From Peribacillus muralis (GTDB taxonomy: Bacteria; Bacillota; Bacilli; Bacillales; DSM-1321), in NCBI RefSeq assembly GCF_001645685.2, contig NZ_CP017080.1:3649051-3713050 (forward strand): 64,000 nucleotides of DNA, written 5' to 3'. This document shows, one piece after another, positions 5,761-64,000 of this stretch. A program made the translations under genes and the position numbers. Positions within the stretch are counted from its first letter, which is position 1. Each line of letters opens with the position of its first letter. The notes under the pieces were generated by a model that had not been told where the DNA came from, searched no databases, and saw only the letters and a list, made by a program, of their open reading frames with translations.

Positions 5761-6510
5761 TTAAGCATGATACCAAGGCAGTGTATTCAAGAACCGGTAT
5801 ACATCCTCATACACCTGTTCACGCTCTTTGCCCAATGTAATGATATGGCCCGATTTCTCATACCATATCAATGATTTATGCTGTGTATCCACTTCATTAT
5901 ATATAATGGATGCACTATTTCTATAATCCGGGTCATCAAGACTTCCCTGTAACACTAGGGTCGGGGAAGTGATGAGATCCAGTTTATCAGCTGTATCATT
6001 AATCATATCAAGTGCTTCCTGCAAGGATGCCATCGGCTCCTCTTTAAGCTTATTCATTTCAGAGGCAACTTGTTCTGCATCTTTCCCCTCAAATTTCTTA
6101 TAAGCTTGTGCATAACTGAGCATCCGATTATTTAAACGGTCTACATCATTCCCAATTGTAGGTGCACACATGGAAACGACCCCTGTAACAGGCAATTCGA
6201 TTCCGACTTTCAATGAGAAGACACCGCCAAGGGAAATACCTACAACGGCAATCTCTTCGTAGCCCTCATCCTTCAAGTATTGATACGCATTTTCCACATC
6301 TTCCCACCACTGCTTCGGACTAGTTTGAACCAGCTCCTCCGCAGGCAAACCATGCCCGCTATATAGAGGTCCGTGGCAAGTATAATCACGATCATTCAAA
6401 TATTTACCCAATTTTTTCATATCTCCCGTACTTCCGGTAAACCCGTGAAGTAAAAGGACTGCTCTATTTCCACCTCTGTATGTGAATGACTCAGGTGCTT
6501 TCACTTTCAT
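5761..6510 (-). CDS. Carboxylesterase, Est30/YvaK family
   Basis: Cytoplasmic alpha/beta hydrolase of 249 residues that cleaves short-chain carboxyl esters. The nucleophile motif is GISLGG, with Ser93 in the elbow (Est30 has GLSLGG). The oxyanion loop is LLLHGFTGS (20-28), the acid is in GSLDDPDYRNS and the catalytic His in EKSGHIITLG. Length and order match Geobacillus Est30 and B. subtilis YvaK (in B. subtilis beside secG and rnr, which are not present here, so the context is different). It is a single-gene unit with its own terminator. Confidence 0.92.
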   Translation of the reverse strand: MKVKAPESFTYRGGNRAVLLLHGFTGSTGDMKKLGKYLNDRDYTCHGPLYSGHGLPAEELVQTSPKQWWEDVENAYQYLKDEGYEEIAVVGISLGGVFSLKVGIELPVTGVVSMCAPTIGNDVDRLNNRMLSYAQAYKKFEGKDAEQVASEMNKLKEEPMASLQEALDMINDTADKLDLITSPTLVLQGSLDDPDYRNSASIIYNEVDTQHKSLIWYEKSGHIITLGKEREQVYEDVYRFLNTLPWYHA

Positions 6511-57139: not shown

Positions 57140-57670
57140 GGAGAGCAAATTCATATATGACCGGACGGATTTTGCGTTGAGCACGCTGATTTTTTTCCGC
57201 ACGGCCGAATTATCGGTCGGGTCGGTCGAATTATCGGTCGGGTCGGTCGAATTATCGGTCGGGTCGGTCGAATTATCGGCTGCGACGGTCGAATTATGAC
57301 AGAGTTCGGACGGATTATGACTGAATTCGGACGGATTCTGCTTTGAGCATGCTGATTTTTTTCCGCACGGCCGGAATATCGGACGGGTCGGTCGAATTAT
57401 CGGCTGCGACGGTCGAATTATGACCGAGTTCGGACGGATTCTGCGTTGGACATGCTGATTTTTTTCCGCACGGCCGGATTATCGGGCGGGTCGGTCGAAT
57501 TATGACCGAGTTCGGACGGATTCTGCGTTGAGCATGCTGATTTTTTCCGCACGGCCGGATTATCGGACGGGTCGGTCGAATTATCGGCTGCGACGGACGA
57601 ATTATGACCGAGTTCGGACGAATTATCGGCTGCGACGGACGGATTATGACCGAGTTCGGTCGAATTATGA
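57140..57670. repeat. Mosaic array of 21-bp repeats with a higher-order unit
   Basis: About 530 bases made of 21-base modules of three main kinds, CGGTCGAATTATCGGTCGGG+T, CGGTCGAATTATCGGCTGCG+A and CGGACGGATTATGACCGAGT+T, joined with a longer module (CTGATTTTTTTCCGCACGGC around 57170, 57352, 57460 and 57538) that recurs about every 80-190 bases. It is rich in CG and palindromic CGG/CCG words. Reading frames stay open because 21 is a multiple of three, but there is no ribosome site. It fills the whole rocR-azoR gap (57083-57721). Confidence 0.88.
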
Positions 57671-57681
57671 CCAGATGCAGT

Positions 57682-57714
57682 GGGAAAGGCCCTCCATATT
57701 TGGAGGGCCTTTCC
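57682..57714. terminator. Perfect hairpin between the repeats and azoR
   Basis: Stem GGAAAGGCCCTCCA / TGGAGGGCCTTTCC, 14 pairs with a 3-4-base loop. It has no T-tract, but by position it should end the catD-catE-azoR transcript. Confidence 0.7.
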
Positions 57715-57721
57715 GTTATGA

Positions 57722-58408
57722 TTAGAATGAAGCGGCAGCTTTTGCAACGTTTTCCAAACCATCGCTGATGATTTTTTGTGTCCGATCGGGGTACTGATTG
57801 TGACCTTCTATGACCACTGCCTCAGGATTGTTGATCCCCCATAGGCTAATGATAGTTTTAACCAAATTGACAGCCATTTCTCCAGAAGCCATTCCTTCCA
57901 AGGCATAATCCGAGCCACGGGCGTTCAGTAACATGACTTTTTTATTGCCCGCATATCCTATTGGACCTTCCGCCGTGTAATTGAACATTTTACCGGCTTG
58001 TGCCAAATAGGATAGATAGGTGATGAGCGGTGCTGGTGCGGTTCCATTCCATAATGGGAAAGCGAAAACCACCTTATCCATCGCCAGGAACTGATTTAAA
58101 TATTGGTCGACCAGATTGGCGGCTTTTTCCTCTTCAGCTGTCAGTTCCAGCCCTTGATTGCGTTTATACAGCCCCGTGATGGCGGTATTGCCATAGTAGG
58201 GAAGGTCTTCTTTGAATAAATCCAATTCAGTCACTTCATCTGTACGGTGTGACTCTTTATACGATTTTAAAAATGTGTCATACATTTTCGAGCTTATTGC
58301 CTGTTCTGCCGGGCGATCGTTCACTTTCACGAAAAGTACTTTTGTCATTTTCCGATTCGCCTCTGCAGCGGTTTCCTTATTTCCAAATAATCTGCTTAAA
58401 AAACCCAT
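57722..58408 (-). CDS. azoR: FMN-dependent NADH-azoreductase AzoR
   Basis: Flavodoxin-fold quinone/azo-dye reductase of 228 residues. After an unusual N-terminal piece (MGFLSRLFGNKETAAEANRK) the family core starts MTKVLFVKVNDRPAEQAISS, with VVFAFPLWNGTAPAPLITYL SYLAQAGKMFNYTAEGPIGY for FMN and quinone binding and LLNARGSDYA. The extension could be an error: an internal ATG at the MTKV sequence has a weaker ribosome site. Last gene of catD-catE-azoR; all three deal with catechols and quinones. Confidence 0.9.
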   Translation of the reverse strand: MGFLSRLFGNKETAAEANRKMTKVLFVKVNDRPAEQAISSKMYDTFLKSYKESHRTDEVTELDLFKEDLPYYGNTAITGLYKRNQGLELTAEEEKAANLVDQYLNQFLAMDKVVFAFPLWNGTAPAPLITYLSYLAQAGKMFNYTAEGPIGYAGNKKVMLLNARGSDYALEGMASGEMAVNLVKTIISLWGINNPEAVVIEGHNQYPDRTQKIISDGLENVAKAAASF

Positions 58409-59813: not shown

Positions 59814-59862
59814 AAAAAAACTGTAGACAAGCTCCCTCTTCAAGAGAGCTGGCCTACAGTTT
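59814..59862 (-). terminator. Terminator of the MATE / nicotianamine-synthase-like operon
   Basis: Minus-strand arms AAACTGTAGGCCAGCTCTCT and AGGGAGCTTGTCTACAGTTT with few mismatches, then TTTTTATC. Confidence 0.92.
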
Positions 59863-59896
59863 GAAACGGGTTGCCTATGCTACCCTTTCATTGGTG

Positions 59897-60718
59897 TTAT
59901 TGTTTAAACGTATAAAAAATGGTTGAATTGATGATGAAAGAATCCGCCTTGGTCCGTGCGACCTCCTCACATTTCACAGTCCGGAACTTCGTTGCATCAA
60001 CGGGCTCATATAATAATTGATGAATGCCGTCCACCGACCGAATGGCAACAATCGCTTCAGGCTTGGTTTGAAATATCCTCTCCAGGATTTTCTCTTTATT
60101 AGGAACTAGACTGGCAATCCAGACTAAATCGAACTCCCCATAATCATGAAGTGCGCCATCTTTCAAGACATAATCCGACGTCGGTTCCCCCTCGAGTTGC
60201 TTTATGATCCGCTTGCCTAGCGAATGGGCTTGTTCATCTATATCAATACAAGTCATACTCGCTCCAAGCTCTTGTTGAAGCAGCAATGGACTTAAAGGCA
60301 AAGGGCCCGTACCTACAAATGCAAAGGAACGGATTTCACCCTTCACTTTCCGTAATTCCTTCATTTCCGTTTTGATCAGTTCTTTGTAGTTCTCCCAATA
60401 AAGGAAGGTATGGAAATCCTCCAAATTGCTCACCTTGCCAGCATATGATTTGGCATAATGCTCCTCCATCAATGTCTCGGCTATGTTCAGCTTGGCAAGC
60501 ATGTTGCCGCGTATCGATTGGATTTCATCTTGGATGAGGATTTCTGTTGCCAAGTGCTGGTCCAACGGTTTGGAAATCACCGAAACAAGCTCCGATAATA
60601 CACGATTGATGATCTTATTATCAGGAGATAAATCAGCTTCCTTCCGTAAGGTTTCATAAGCCCCCACATATGTATGAATGATTTTTTCTTGATTTCTAGA
60701 CCATTTCATTGCTTTCAA
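59897..60718 (-). CDS. Nicotianamine-synthase-like enzyme (CntL family)
   Basis: SAM-dependent aminobutanoyl-transferase-like enzyme of 273 residues. The N-terminal helical domain (about 1-125) is followed by a Rossmann fold with SFAFVGTGPLPLSPLLLQ (about 132-147, the nicotianamine synthase signature) and SMTCIDIDEQAHSLGKR for SAM binding, then FDLVWIASLVPNKEKILERI. In staphylopine, pseudopaline and bacillopaline systems CntL adds an aminobutanoate unit to His. TTG at 60718 is chosen because GAGGAG lies 8 bases upstream. It overlaps the MATE gene by 23 bases. No opine dehydrogenase (CntM) or racemase (CntK) is in the window; they could lie upstream of the ABC genes. Confidence 0.87.
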   Translation of the reverse strand: MKAMKWSRNQEKIIHTYVGAYETLRKEADLSPDNKIINRVLSELVSVISKPLDQHLATEILIQDEIQSIRGNMLAKLNIAETLMEEHYAKSYAGKVSNLEDFHTFLYWENYKELIKTEMKELRKVKGEIRSFAFVGTGPLPLSPLLLQQELGASMTCIDIDEQAHSLGKRIIKQLEGEPTSDYVLKDGALHDYGEFDLVWIASLVPNKEKILERIFQTKPEAIVAIRSVDGIHQLLYEPVDATKFRTVKCEEVARTKADSFIINSTIFYTFKQ

Positions 60719-62033
60719 GGTGAACACTCCTCTTAGGAAATAATTTTTTATTTAACTGAGGTATATATAGTGACAAAAAAATGGAACGACCTAAGCTGAA
60801 GATTGTAAAGGCGAGCCACAATCCATGGTTTTGATACACAGGTACAAAGAAATGCAGTGTCAATAGAAAGGCGATCAAGGAGTAAATCATCGAGTTTCGA
60901 ATCGGGGCCGCCTCGGTTGCCCCAGTAAAAACACCATAAAAAACGATCCCTACACTCGCTGCTATCGGGAACAGGACCAACCAGGATCCATAAACATGTG
61001 CCCCTTCCATGACACTGGGTATCCGCGTAAAAAACGTGAAAATGGAATCACGGAATAAATGGTAGCAAGCGGCCATCAGCAGCGAGGTCAGCACTCCCCA
61101 TTGCAGGGACAGCAGCAACGTCTTCTTATATAAAAGCTGATTTCTAGAACCAACCGCTTTCCCGACCAAAATGCTCGAAGCGTTTGCCAATCCGTCGAAG
61201 AAGTATGCCATCATATAATGGATTTGGATGAGTACCGCATTGGCGGCCAATACCTCCGTTCCGTATGAGGCTCCCTTTGCCGTAAAGATATTGAAGACGG
61301 TCAACAAGCAAAGCGTTCTAATGAATAAATCGCGATTCACCGACATCATTTTCTTTATCGAGGAGGCATCGATCATTTCCTTCAAAGGAGGCATTTCCAA
61401 TCGATGCAAAAAGGCGTTCCAAATAATGAATAACCCAATGAAAAAGGCTGTCATTTCCGAGAGCAGCGTGGCTATCGCTACACCTGATACCCCCCATTCG
61501 AATACATGGACGAACACCAGGGCCAGAATGATGTTCATGACGTTCATGAACACCTGTAGCAGTAACGAAACCTTGATTTTGGCCATCCCCATCAGCCAGC
61601 CCAATATGACGTAATTCATCAATGTGAAAGGAATCCCCCATATCCGGATGCCGAGGTATTCCGCCGCATATAAGCGGACTGCTGCATCGGGATCCATCAA
61701 GTTTAAGGAAATTCGTTCGATTGGTCCCTGCAGCAATATGAAAACGATCCCGACCGCCAAGGCCAAAAGAAATGGTCTTATAAAAGCGAGCTTTCCTTCC
61801 CTATCATCGTTTGCCCCAAGTGCTTGTGCAGCAAATCCCGATGTGCTCACCCGCAAAAATCCAAACAGCCAATATAAGGTATTAAACACGACAGTACCGA
61901 TGGCCACGCCGCCCAAATAAGCAGGATCGGGCAATTGGCCCACAACAGCGGTGTCAACCGCACCTAAGAGTGGCGTCGTTATCGTCGAGATAATCAGAGG
62001 AATGGCCAATGCTAAATATGATCGATGGTTCAC
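60696..62033 (-). CDS. MATE-family efflux transporter (DinF-like), candidate metallophore exporter
   Basis: Twelve-helix membrane antiporter of 445 residues. The N-terminal block ALAIPLIISTITTPLLGAVD TAVVGQLPDPAYLGGVAIGT and GFLRVSTSGFAAQALGANDD are DinF/MATE signatures, and the second half repeats them (LAANAVLIQIHYMMAYFFDG LANASSILVGKAVG). GTG start with GGGAGG 7 bases upstream. It is preceded by its own promoter and a Zur-like palindrome and translationally coupled to the CntL-like gene, so export of that enzyme's product is the natural guess; known systems use CntE (MFS) or CntI (EamA) instead. Confidence 0.9.
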   Translation of the reverse strand: MNHRSYLALAIPLIISTITTPLLGAVDTAVVGQLPDPAYLGGVAIGTVVFNTLYWLFGFLRVSTSGFAAQALGANDDREGKLAFIRPFLLALAVGIVFILLQGPIERISLNLMDPDAAVRLYAAEYLGIRIWGIPFTLMNYVILGWLMGMAKIKVSLLLQVFMNVMNIILALVFVHVFEWGVSGVAIATLLSEMTAFFIGLFIIWNAFLHRLEMPPLKEMIDASSIKKMMSVNRDLFIRTLCLLTVFNIFTAKGASYGTEVLAANAVLIQIHYMMAYFFDGLANASSILVGKAVGSRNQLLYKKTLLLSLQWGVLTSLLMAACYHLFRDSIFTFFTRIPSVMEGAHVYGSWLVLFPIAASVGIVFYGVFTGATEAAPIRNSMIYSLIAFLLTLHFFVPVYQNHGLWLAFTIFSLGRSIFLSLYIPQLNKKLFPKRSVHLESNEMV

Positions 62034-62065
62034 CTTGCTTCCTCCCTAGATTCAAAAATAAAAAA

Positions 62066-62080
62066 ACGTAACCATTTCGA
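62066..62080. promoter_or_regulatory. Zur-like operator upstream of the MATE gene
   Basis: Minus strand TCGAAATGGTTACGT, flanked by AAA and TTT. Against the B. subtilis Zur core TCGTAATnATTACGA it agrees at 11 of 14 scored positions, and it fits Fur and PerR cores less well. It begins 7 bases after the -10 box of the promoter at 62088, where a repressor would act. Confidence 0.6.
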
Positions 62081-62087
62081 TTTATAA

Positions 62088-62115
62088 ACTATATTAGTTT
62101 CCTCATATCAATCAA
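62088..62115 (-). promoter_or_regulatory. Candidate SigA promoter of the MATE / CntL-like pair
   Basis: Minus strand TTGATT, 16-base spacer, TATAGT, overlapping the stop codon of the upstream ABC gene, 55 bases before the MATE start. Confidence 0.6.
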
Positions 62116-62872
62116 ACAGGGAAATCAATTCTTTCGTATATGGATGACGGTCGGCACAAAGAAGCAGCTCCGTCTCGAAGGCATCGACGATTTCCCCTTC
62201 TTTCATCACCATGATTCTTTGGCACATCTTTTGTACCGCCGGGAGATCGTGGGAAATGAATAGATAAGACATGCCTAACCTCTCACGCAGCTTCCCTAGC
62301 AATGTAAGCAACGACGCCTGTGATAAAACATCCAGGCTTGAAGCAGGTTCATCCAGAATAATCAGGCTCGGTTCAATGCTGATGGCCCGGGCAATGGTCA
62401 CACGCTGCTTTTGGCCGCCACTTAACTCGTGCGGATAACGCTCAGCCAAACTTTTTGGAAGCTCCACCATTTCCAGTAGCTGCTCAATGAAATCGCGTTC
62501 ACTTTTATACGTCAGATGCTTCATATCGACCTGACTGCCATATTGCTGAAAAGGATCGATTAATGACTCCCTTACCTTTAGTTTCGGATTCAGTGCAGAA
62601 GCCGGATTTTGCAAGACGGCCTGCATGTTCCTTCGGTATGGCTTTAAAAGGCGTTCACTTTTTCCAGACAGCTCCCTTCCATTAAATAAGATGCTGCCTT
62701 CGTCAATCGGCTCAATCTGCAGGAGGCAGCGGGCAAGCGTGCTCTTTCCGCACCCGCTTTCCCCGATCAAACCTAAGCATTCTTTGCTTTCGATGCTAAA
62801 ATTTACATTTTTAAGCACTTCCGCTCCACTATAGTATGTTTTATGGATATTTCGTATGTCTAATAAACTCAT
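62108..62872 (-). CDS. Dpp/Opp-type ABC importer ATP-binding protein (CntF/DppF-like)
   Basis: A 254-residue ATPase. Walker A is GESGCGKS (about 36-43), the Q-loop is AVLQNPASALNP, the signature is HELSGGQKQRVTIARA, and Walker B is LIILDEPASSLDVLSQA. The C-terminal HPYTKELI is the oligopeptide-family tail. It forms a heterodimer with the next protein. Overlaps it by 4 bases. In Cnt and nickel-type systems this pair powers uptake of metal-metallophore complexes. Confidence 0.92.
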   Translation of the reverse strand: MSLLDIRNIHKTYYSGAEVLKNVNFSIESKECLGLIGESGCGKSTLARCLLQIEPIDEGSILFNGRELSGKSERLLKPYRRNMQAVLQNPASALNPKLKVRESLIDPFQQYGSQVDMKHLTYKSERDFIEQLLEMVELPKSLAERYPHELSGGQKQRVTIARAISIEPSLIILDEPASSLDVLSQASLLTLLGKLRERLGMSYLFISHDLPAVQKMCQRIMVMKEGEIVDAFETELLLCADRHPYTKELISLFD

Positions 62873-63666
62873 CCGAATGCCCCCTCATGTTTTAATAAAT
62901 CTTTTCTGAGTGAGGGAGATGCTTGAATCAGCCTCCTGGTATAGGGATGCTGAGGATGATTGAGTACGTGGTCTTTATCTCCGCTTTCAATCATCACTCC
63001 GTCTTTCATCACCCCTATGCGGTCCGCGTATTTCTTGACATGACGCAAATCATGGGTGATGAACAGGATTGCGCATCCAGCTTCTGCCTGTAGTCTTGAT
63101 AACAGCTCCAAAATCTTAAAAGATGAGACGCTATCCAGGGCAGTGGTCGGTTCATCCGCTATCAATAAATCAGGTTGAAGCAGCAGTGCAAGTGAAATGG
63201 ATACCCTTTGAAGCTGGCCGCCACTTAATTGAAAAGGATATCTGCTGTAGATATCCTCAGCCAGTCCCACTGATGCGAGCGCGTCGACAGCTTGCCGGCG
63301 TCGTGCCTTTTTGGAAAGGTCCAGATGCGTCCGCTGATATTCTTCGAAATGTTGACCGATCGTAAGGAACGGTGTGAATGAACTTTGGTAATCTTGAAAA
63401 ATATAAGCGAGGCGCTTGCCGCGAAGCTTCCTGATGACTGGTGCACAGAGAGTTAATATATTCTTGTCTTCAAACCATATTTCTCCCTTCGCTTGGAGAT
63501 TGGGTGAAAGCAGCTGTCCAATCGCCATAGCCGTCATGCTTTTGCCGCTGCCGCTTTGACCGACGAGTGCCAGCCACTCTCCTTCACGGACCTCAAATGA
63601 AAGATTTTTTACGATATGATTTTGCTTGCCCATCACATGTAGCTGCCTTACCGATAAAAGACTCAT
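62869..63666 (-). CDS. Dpp/Opp-type ABC importer ATP-binding protein (CntD/DppD-like)
   Basis: A 265-residue ATPase with Walker A GQSGSGKS (about 37-44), Q-loop YIFQDYQSSFTPFLTIGQ, signature FQLSGGQLQRVSISLALLLQ and Walker B LLIADEPTTALD. The tail HPYTRRLIQASPSL is typical of DppD/NikD. Overlaps the permease by 4 bases. Its sequence (for example GKRLAYIFQDYQSSFTP) resembles nickel/cobalt/zinc-metallophore importers more than peptide importers, though this cannot be settled by eye. Confidence 0.92.
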   Translation of the reverse strand: MSLLSVRQLHVMGKQNHIVKNLSFEVREGEWLALVGQSGSGKSMTAMAIGQLLSPNLQAKGEIWFEDKNILTLCAPVIRKLRGKRLAYIFQDYQSSFTPFLTIGQHFEEYQRTHLDLSKKARRRQAVDALASVGLAEDIYSRYPFQLSGGQLQRVSISLALLLQPDLLIADEPTTALDSVSSFKILELLSRLQAEAGCAILFITHDLRHVKKYADRIGVMKDGVMIESGDKDHVLNHPQHPYTRRLIQASPSLRKDLLKHEGAFG

Positions 63667-64000
63667 GATTCCACCTTCTTATTCACATCGAATGCATCTC
63701 TGAAATAATCGCCGAGTATGTTTGTTAAAAAAACGACACCCATGATGGCGAGCCCTGGATAAATCATCAGGGATTGATTGGTTTGGAAGTATGGGCGGGC
63801 ATCGTTCAGCATGGCCCCCCACTCCGCTGCAGGCGGCTGGGCACCAAGGCCAATATACGACAAGGACGATATGAGCAAAATGATTTTACCTAAATCGAGA
63901 CTGGCAAGGACGAGCACGTTTCCGATGATATGCGGAAAAAGGTGTTTTTTCATGATCCTAAAGGAGCTTAGTCCATTTATTTTGGTCATGGTGACATAAT
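63663..64000 (-). CDS. Dpp/Opp-type ABC importer permease (CntC/DppC-like), C-terminal part
   Basis: The open frame runs past the window end (codons YVT precede the first ATG in view). The C-terminal 112 residues show the EAA loop of the inner-membrane permease (INGLSSFRIMKKHLFPHIIG), two helices, and SYIGLGAQPPAAEWGAMLND ARPYF, followed by MIYPGLAIMGVVFLTNILGD YFRDAFD, which is the DppC/NikC end. The rest of the operon (second permease, binding protein and possibly CntK/CntM) lies beyond 64000. Confidence 0.9.
   Translation of the reverse strand, partial: YVTMTKINGLSSFRIMKKHLFPHIIGNVLVLASLDLGKIILLISSLSYIGLGAQPPAAEWGAMLNDARPYFQTNQSLMIYPGLAIMGVVFLTNILGDYFRDAFDVNKKVES

Follow-up and report, generated by a model that had tools for sequence, protein, structure and literature searches.

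A Zur-linked operon joining a nicotianamine synthase family gene to a MATE transporter and a Nik-type importer, a candidate zincophore system without CntM in Peribacillus and other Bacilli

The window analyzed here, a stretch of 64,000 nucleotides from Peribacillus muralis (contig NZ_CP017080.1), ends inside a minus-strand operon that combines a nicotianamine synthase (NAS) family gene, a MATE transporter gene and the genes of an ATP-binding cassette (ABC) importer. Once the sequence beyond the edge of the window is added, the operon is complete and runs in the order substrate-binding protein (SBP), permease, permease, ATPase, ATPase, MATE and NAS. It is conserved in content and order among Bacilli, carries Zur-box-like sites in its promoter, encodes an enzyme with the NAS fold and key residues, and occurs in a genome with no detectable opine dehydrogenase. 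It is therefore probable that this is a Zur-repressed operon in which a nicotianamine-type chelator is finished by a single enzyme, leaves the cell through MATE and returns by way of the Nik-type ABC transporter.

According to this proposal, a shortage of zinc would make Zur release its sites in the promoter in front of the SBP gene, allowing transcription of all seven genes. NAS would then assemble a complete nicotianamine-type chelator out of 2-aminobutyrate units taken from S-adenosylmethionine. The MATE protein, produced by overlapping translation, would carry this chelator out of the cell, and the Opp2/Opp5A-type (Nik-like) SBP and ABC transporter would bring the metal complex back. Since aminobutyrate transfer is the last step needed for a nicotianamine-type ligand, neither a histidine racemase nor an opine dehydrogenase would be needed, and their absence is expected. 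Nicotianamine itself, made from three S-adenosylmethionine molecules, is our first choice of product, although a tentative one, followed by some other chelator of two or three units built on a different starter amino acid.

Conservation and layout of the operon

A contig scan returned 66 NAS loci, of which 14 (L032-L043, L049 and L050) have importer genes beside NAS. These 14, together with L132 and L133 from Bacilli of other families and the window itself, make up the 17 loci compared. All seven genes, with MATE in one piece, are present in 14 of the 17 (13 of 16 plus the window), so that their linkage is not due to chance. The operon ranges over Peribacillus, Anoxybacillus, Bacillus canaveralius, Halalkalibacter and two further Bacilli families, and the lowest identities to the window proteins are 35% for NAS and 51% for MATE. 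The exceptions are L038, where MATE is split between two frames, L041, which lacks MATE, and L049, which has no MATE match. In Halalkalibacter (L050), NAS lies ahead of the SBP gene rather than behind MATE, indicating that the association survived a rearrangement. In L049, from Peribacillus frigoritolerans RU293, only NAS residues 189-275 are left and positions 5980-6400 hold a deletion scar that fuses the start of MATE to the end of NAS, with the importer kept. Judging from this sequence, the strain looks like a possible 'cheater' that continues to take up a chelator produced by others.

The window belongs to a genome (G000) of 5.0 Mb in two contigs, and the closest named relatives of its NAS are from Peribacillus. 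Upstream of MATE lie two ABC ATPase genes, both PF00005 and both on the minus strand: a NikE/OppF-like one at 62108..62872 (best NCBIfam match NikE, 235 bits, under the cut-off of 333) and a NikD/CntD/CntF-like one at 62869..63666 (best match CntF, 272 bits, under the cut-off of 385). The Opp2C permease gene at 63663..64000, also on the minus strand, is cut by the window (NF045474, 345 bits, cut-off 300); in full it spans L002:10714-11553 and encodes 279 aa. The next 8 kb past 64000 (locus L002) hold the remainder of this permease, the second permease and the SBP, beyond which a gap of about 400 bp leads to an OsmC gene and to the genes of another importer, of the amino-acid type.

The transcript appears to be bounded on both sides, given that the OsmC gene is followed by a terminator-like hairpin, the DNA in front of the SBP gene has a promoter-like pair (TTGTAA-18-TATAAT), and the 3' side of NAS has an intrinsic terminator followed by a separate DoxX gene with its own perfect sigma-A-like promoter. 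The terminator at the operon end (59814..59862, minus strand; a hairpin with seven U, -27.8 kcal/mol, z -5.7) was found by folding and is absent from the pattern-scan listing. A search of the operon region and leader for RNA families yielded no riboswitch, the one match, to rli40, being weak and sub-threshold (21 bits, gathering score 100). Outside the operon, a minus-strand open reading frame (ORF) at window positions 57418-57762 encodes SELGHNPSVAADN-type repeats and is probably a low-complexity repeat stretch.

The NAS family enzyme and the missing opine dehydrogenase

The preliminary description of this DNA had reported a NAS-like gene with the signature VGTGPLPLSP joined to a MATE gene downstream of an importer, and this holds. 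The protein contains VGTGPLPLSP and passes the PF03059 model with 105 bits against a cut-off of 27.1. The mechanical ORF, on which the residue numbers below are counted, covers 59897-60727 with a GTG start (276 aa). However, TTG at 60718 is the likely start, because relatives begin at the same residue and AGGAG stands just upstream. The gene would then occupy 59897..60718 on the minus strand, encode 273 aa and overlap the MATE stop by 23 nt.

E84, E88 and Y114 of the window NAS align exactly with E73, E77 and Y106 of AtNAS1. According to Seebach 2023 (PMC10248798), AtNAS1 E73Q, E77Q and Y106F are each inactive, nicotianamine synthesis being abolished, and E73 is conserved in plant NAS and differs in microbial NAS-like proteins. 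The window enzyme thus resembles plant NAS of the AtNAS1 type in family and in these positions, and differs from it in sitting in a bacterial operon, with a product that is predicted, and in a short insertion considered below. Residues were examined in 30 of the 43 NAS matches of the Bacilli sample, namely those with fetched loci. Glu84 and Tyr114 are present in 7/7 NAS proteins without CntM, whereas the CntM-adjacent CntL proteins have V, I or L at 84 and I or L at 114 in 23/23 cases and none has Glu84 or Tyr114. Of the 59 rows in a wider alignment, 52 are E/E/Y (8 plant rows and 44 others outside CntL and Methanobacteria), 5 archaeal rows are G/E/Y and both CntL rows have Ile at 114. The archaeal thermonicotianamine synthase MtNAS (3fpe) differs from the window enzyme by a Gly at position 84, also found in 4 Methanobacteria rows. 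At the level of the aligned sequences, the two-residue signature E84/Y114 sets the CntM-less NAS apart from CntL.

The preliminary description had read the locus as a Cnt-like opine-metallophore system. Its synthase, exporter and importer logic is upheld by the conserved synteny and the Zur-box-like sites, but the opine part is not. The PF10100 opine dehydrogenase model, which finds matches in other genomes, has none next to the operon or elsewhere in the window's genome, and PF02317, the octopine-dehydrogenase family, is also without a match there. Among the 15 genomes searched with PF02317, two gave a match, full in G007 and fragmentary in G005. The cntA, cntK and cntM genes that were to be sought past 64000 did not appear, since neither CntK nor CntM is among the genes in those 8 kb and the SBP is of the NikA/Opp5A type. 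PF10100 is absent from 13 of the 14 operon-bearing genomes searched, the L049 genome having been left out. The exception is Peribacillus sp. Bi96, which carries this operon and, on another contig (L098 1-4272), a separate cluster with CntL (304 bits), CntM (705 bits, PF10100), CntA (839 bits) and a DAP-epimerase-like gene fragment.

Of 398 Bacilli genomes sampled, 42 had NAS-family matches, 52 had PF10100 and 35 had both. NAS without PF10100 was thus found in 7 of the 42 (G000, G118, G150, G276, G319, G381 and G392), an absence rechecked with a positive control, with G000 tested separately. The MATE operon is present in five of these seven, G276 and G392 having NAS without it. Additionally, the window NAS reaches only 53.5 bits against the CntL family NF033601 (cut-off 350), although the CntM-adjacent CntL of Bi96 also falls short with 304. 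In the CntL tree that had been planned beforehand, it groups outside the CntL clade, separated by a branch with SH-aLRT 100 from all 17 CntM-linked CntL rows (a quick-method tree of 73 rows that excludes 16 redundant or partial ones and takes its CntL rows from Bacilli only). Under the definition used in PMC7438024, NAS lies directly upstream of CntM, which is not the case at the window locus, and importer and exporter lie within six ORFs, which is. The opine-metallophore identity was rejected on the missing dehydrogenase gene, the tree and the family scores, the first two being results that the preliminary description had itself named as refuting its reading. The operon shares with the opine-like zincophores (staphylopine, pseudopaline, yersinopine and bacillopaline) a NAS-family enzyme and an exporter, with the staphylopine type an Opp-type ABC importer, and with pseudopaline the Zur link reported in PMC6103462. 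It differs from them in having neither CntM nor an adjacent racemase, a NAS outside the CntL clade and an SBP that is not CntA.

NAS was also found in other gene settings. The Jiangellaceae NAS (L067-L071 and L096) combine a plant-like C/E/E/Y pattern with inserted residues where plant NAS has VGMD, and they neighbor plant NAS in the tree (SH-aLRT 91), which may be relevant to how plant NAS originated. In six actinobacterial loci (L068 10797-12065, L070 10801-12111, L072 10809-12071, L073 10788-12083, L079 8628-9893 and L096 10788-12062), NAS adjoins or overlaps the gene of an ATP-grasp ligase whose C-terminal domain is of the L-amino-acid-ligase type and which possibly joins the chelator to an amino acid. 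The Micavibrio NAS (L045 2447-3331) is followed 14 bp on by a protein with weak ATP-grasp matches, the equivalent of which in L046 has no Pfam match. In Paenibacillus cellulosilyticus (L058 10944-12964), whose genome has no PF10100 match, the genes after NAS encode an ArsP_1 permease, a DUF1980 protein and an importer of the Opp type.

Importer, putative exporter and Zur-box-like sites

The importer genes directly upstream had been described as Dpp/Opp-type, which is now corrected to the Opp2/Opp5A 'nickel' type. By sequence, the SBP is of the NikA/Opp5A type and not of the CntA type, scoring 706 bits against the cut-off of 600 for Opp5A_nikA (NF045468), with 738 in Anoxybacillus and 732 in Halalkalibacter. 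Against CntA (NF047575) it reaches 120 bits for a cut-off of 800, while the Bi96 CntA, although cut by the locus end, reaches 839. Both permeases exceed their Opp2B/Opp2C 'nickel' cut-offs. Among solved structures, 3t66 is the closest to the SBP (683 bits), followed by the Staphylococcus aureus NikA 4ofj (256) and the S. aureus-type SBP 5yh8 (90), which we take to be CntA. The system is thus like the nickel ABC transporters Opp2/Opp5A (NikA-type) in having SBP and both permeases above curated cut-offs, and unlike them in its linkage to NAS and MATE and in the Zur-box-like sites in front.

The MATE gene (60696..62033, minus strand) encodes 445 aa of the DinF-like branch, with 126 bits for PF01554 and 245 for TIGR00797, above the cut-off of 147. 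The operon MATEs are 51-87% identical to that of the window, whereas the genome's only other MATE match is weak, with 18% identity. The view that MATE would be a new exporter class for this metallophore family was dropped, as fusobacterial opine clusters have a MatE transporter, called a third efflux type by Morey and Kehl-Fie 2020 (PMC7438024). Going by that description, and not by sequence, those clusters (cluster 8) are alike in having a MATE exporter beside a NAS gene, and unlike in having been found through CntM and in their FecCD-type importers.

Zur-box-like sites were scored against the consensus TCGTAATNATTACGA, which we take to be that of the Zur box. Sites with at most 2 mismatches occur in the 551-bp promoter window ahead of the importer in 17/17 loci, whereas the other 323 kb of these loci, with 15 sites of which some are the boxes upstream of MATE, predict 0.025 per window. 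In 200 base shuffles, a mean of 0.07 loci had such a site. With at most 1 mismatch, 13 of the 17 promoter windows still have a site, which is perfect in two loci, L039 and L050. In the window genome, the promoter has two sites 64 bp apart, one of them wholly inside the -35/-10 spacer. A further box precedes MATE by 33-50 bp in all seven Peribacillus loci that keep MATE, with 1-3 mismatches. That of the window (62066..62080, minus strand) is weak, with 3 mismatches, and several Peribacillus relatives match the consensus better at this position. A similar two-site layout, 63 bp apart, was found in the same genome at a CobW-type GTPase gene that scores best against the family of the zinc chaperone ZigA (531 bits, under the cut-off of 600). 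The CobW-type GTPase yciC of B. subtilis is under Zur control, according to PMC5007448. Taken as sequence matches, these sites suggest that the operon is under Zur control.

Alternative readings and biological meaning

Several observations weigh against a Zur-controlled zincophore operon. Regarding regulation, the literature confirms a palindromic Zur box without confirming the letters of the consensus used here. Both promoter sites in the window genome have 2 mismatches, a genome-wide scan at 3 mismatches is at background level (325 matches vs 308 in the reversed control), and among Paenibacillus loci with E84-type or related NAS, a Zur-box-like site within 400 bp upstream of NAS occurs in 0/15. 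Regarding the exporter, the MATE family also exports drugs, and L041 keeps NAS without MATE, which may be dispensable. Regarding the product, deletion of 206-VGMD-209 also inactivates AtNAS1, according to Seebach 2023 (PMC10248798). The equivalent segment is a four-residue gap in the alignment of the window NAS, and nicotianamine is not secured as the product since this enzyme lacks an insertion that AtNAS1 needs. Finally, SBP and permeases score as 'nickel' transporters, and the cargo may be nickel or cobalt.

This last point leads to the reading in which the same operon serves mainly for nickel or cobalt, as a nickelophore system with a Nik-type importer. The scores of the SBP and of both permeases would favor it, as would the name of the closest solved structure, 3t66, a nickel-binding protein. 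However, such family names are an annotation record and not a tested metal, and both the sites in all 17 promoter windows and the promoter layout in common with a zinc-chaperone-type GTPase gene point to zinc, which makes this reading unlikely. A slightly lower probability is assigned to the NAS product being an intracellular metal buffer, with MATE and the importer handling other compounds. Both stand-alone NAS genes (L044 and L134) carry Zur-box-like sites, and the persistence of NAS without MATE in L041 would fit as well, but 14 of the 17 loci, from several families, have synthase, MATE and importer in one contiguous unit. Moreover, L049 lost MATE and most of NAS together and kept the importer, as would be expected if a chelator made by others were imported. 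It is very improbable that the locus makes a genuine opine metallophore by means of an unlinked dehydrogenase or one of another family. The overall logic of importer, exporter and NAS is the same and two of the 15 genomes have PF02317, but the window's genome has neither dehydrogenase family, the SH-aLRT 100 branch separates its NAS from the CntM-linked CntL, and its NF033601 score is far below even that of a CntM-adjacent CntL.

The zincophore proposal thus stays the preferred one. Its most specific version, in which soil and thermophilic Bacilli secrete nicotianamine as a Zur-controlled zincophore that NAS makes, MATE exports and the Nik-type importer recovers, is more doubtful than the assignment of the product alone. 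As a NAS-based metallophore operon it is of a known kind, and, as far as our searches show, its CntM-free, Zur-linked, MATE/Nik branch is undescribed, no description of this operon type having been found in a literature search limited to open-licence papers. The zincophore survey of 2020 was anchored on CntM, and its authors stated that it would overlook any zincophore made without this enzyme (PMC7438024).

The operon is therefore a conserved and testable candidate for a zincophore class missed by the CntM-based map, and its Zur-box-like sites give a direct prediction of the conditions of expression. Should nicotianamine prove to be the product, bacteria would share with plants a chelator, secreted or internal, which would bear on zinc exchange in the rhizosphere. 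If its secretion is also true, these Bacilli would represent a second, one-step branch of bacterial nicotianamine-type metallophores that CntM-based surveys missed.

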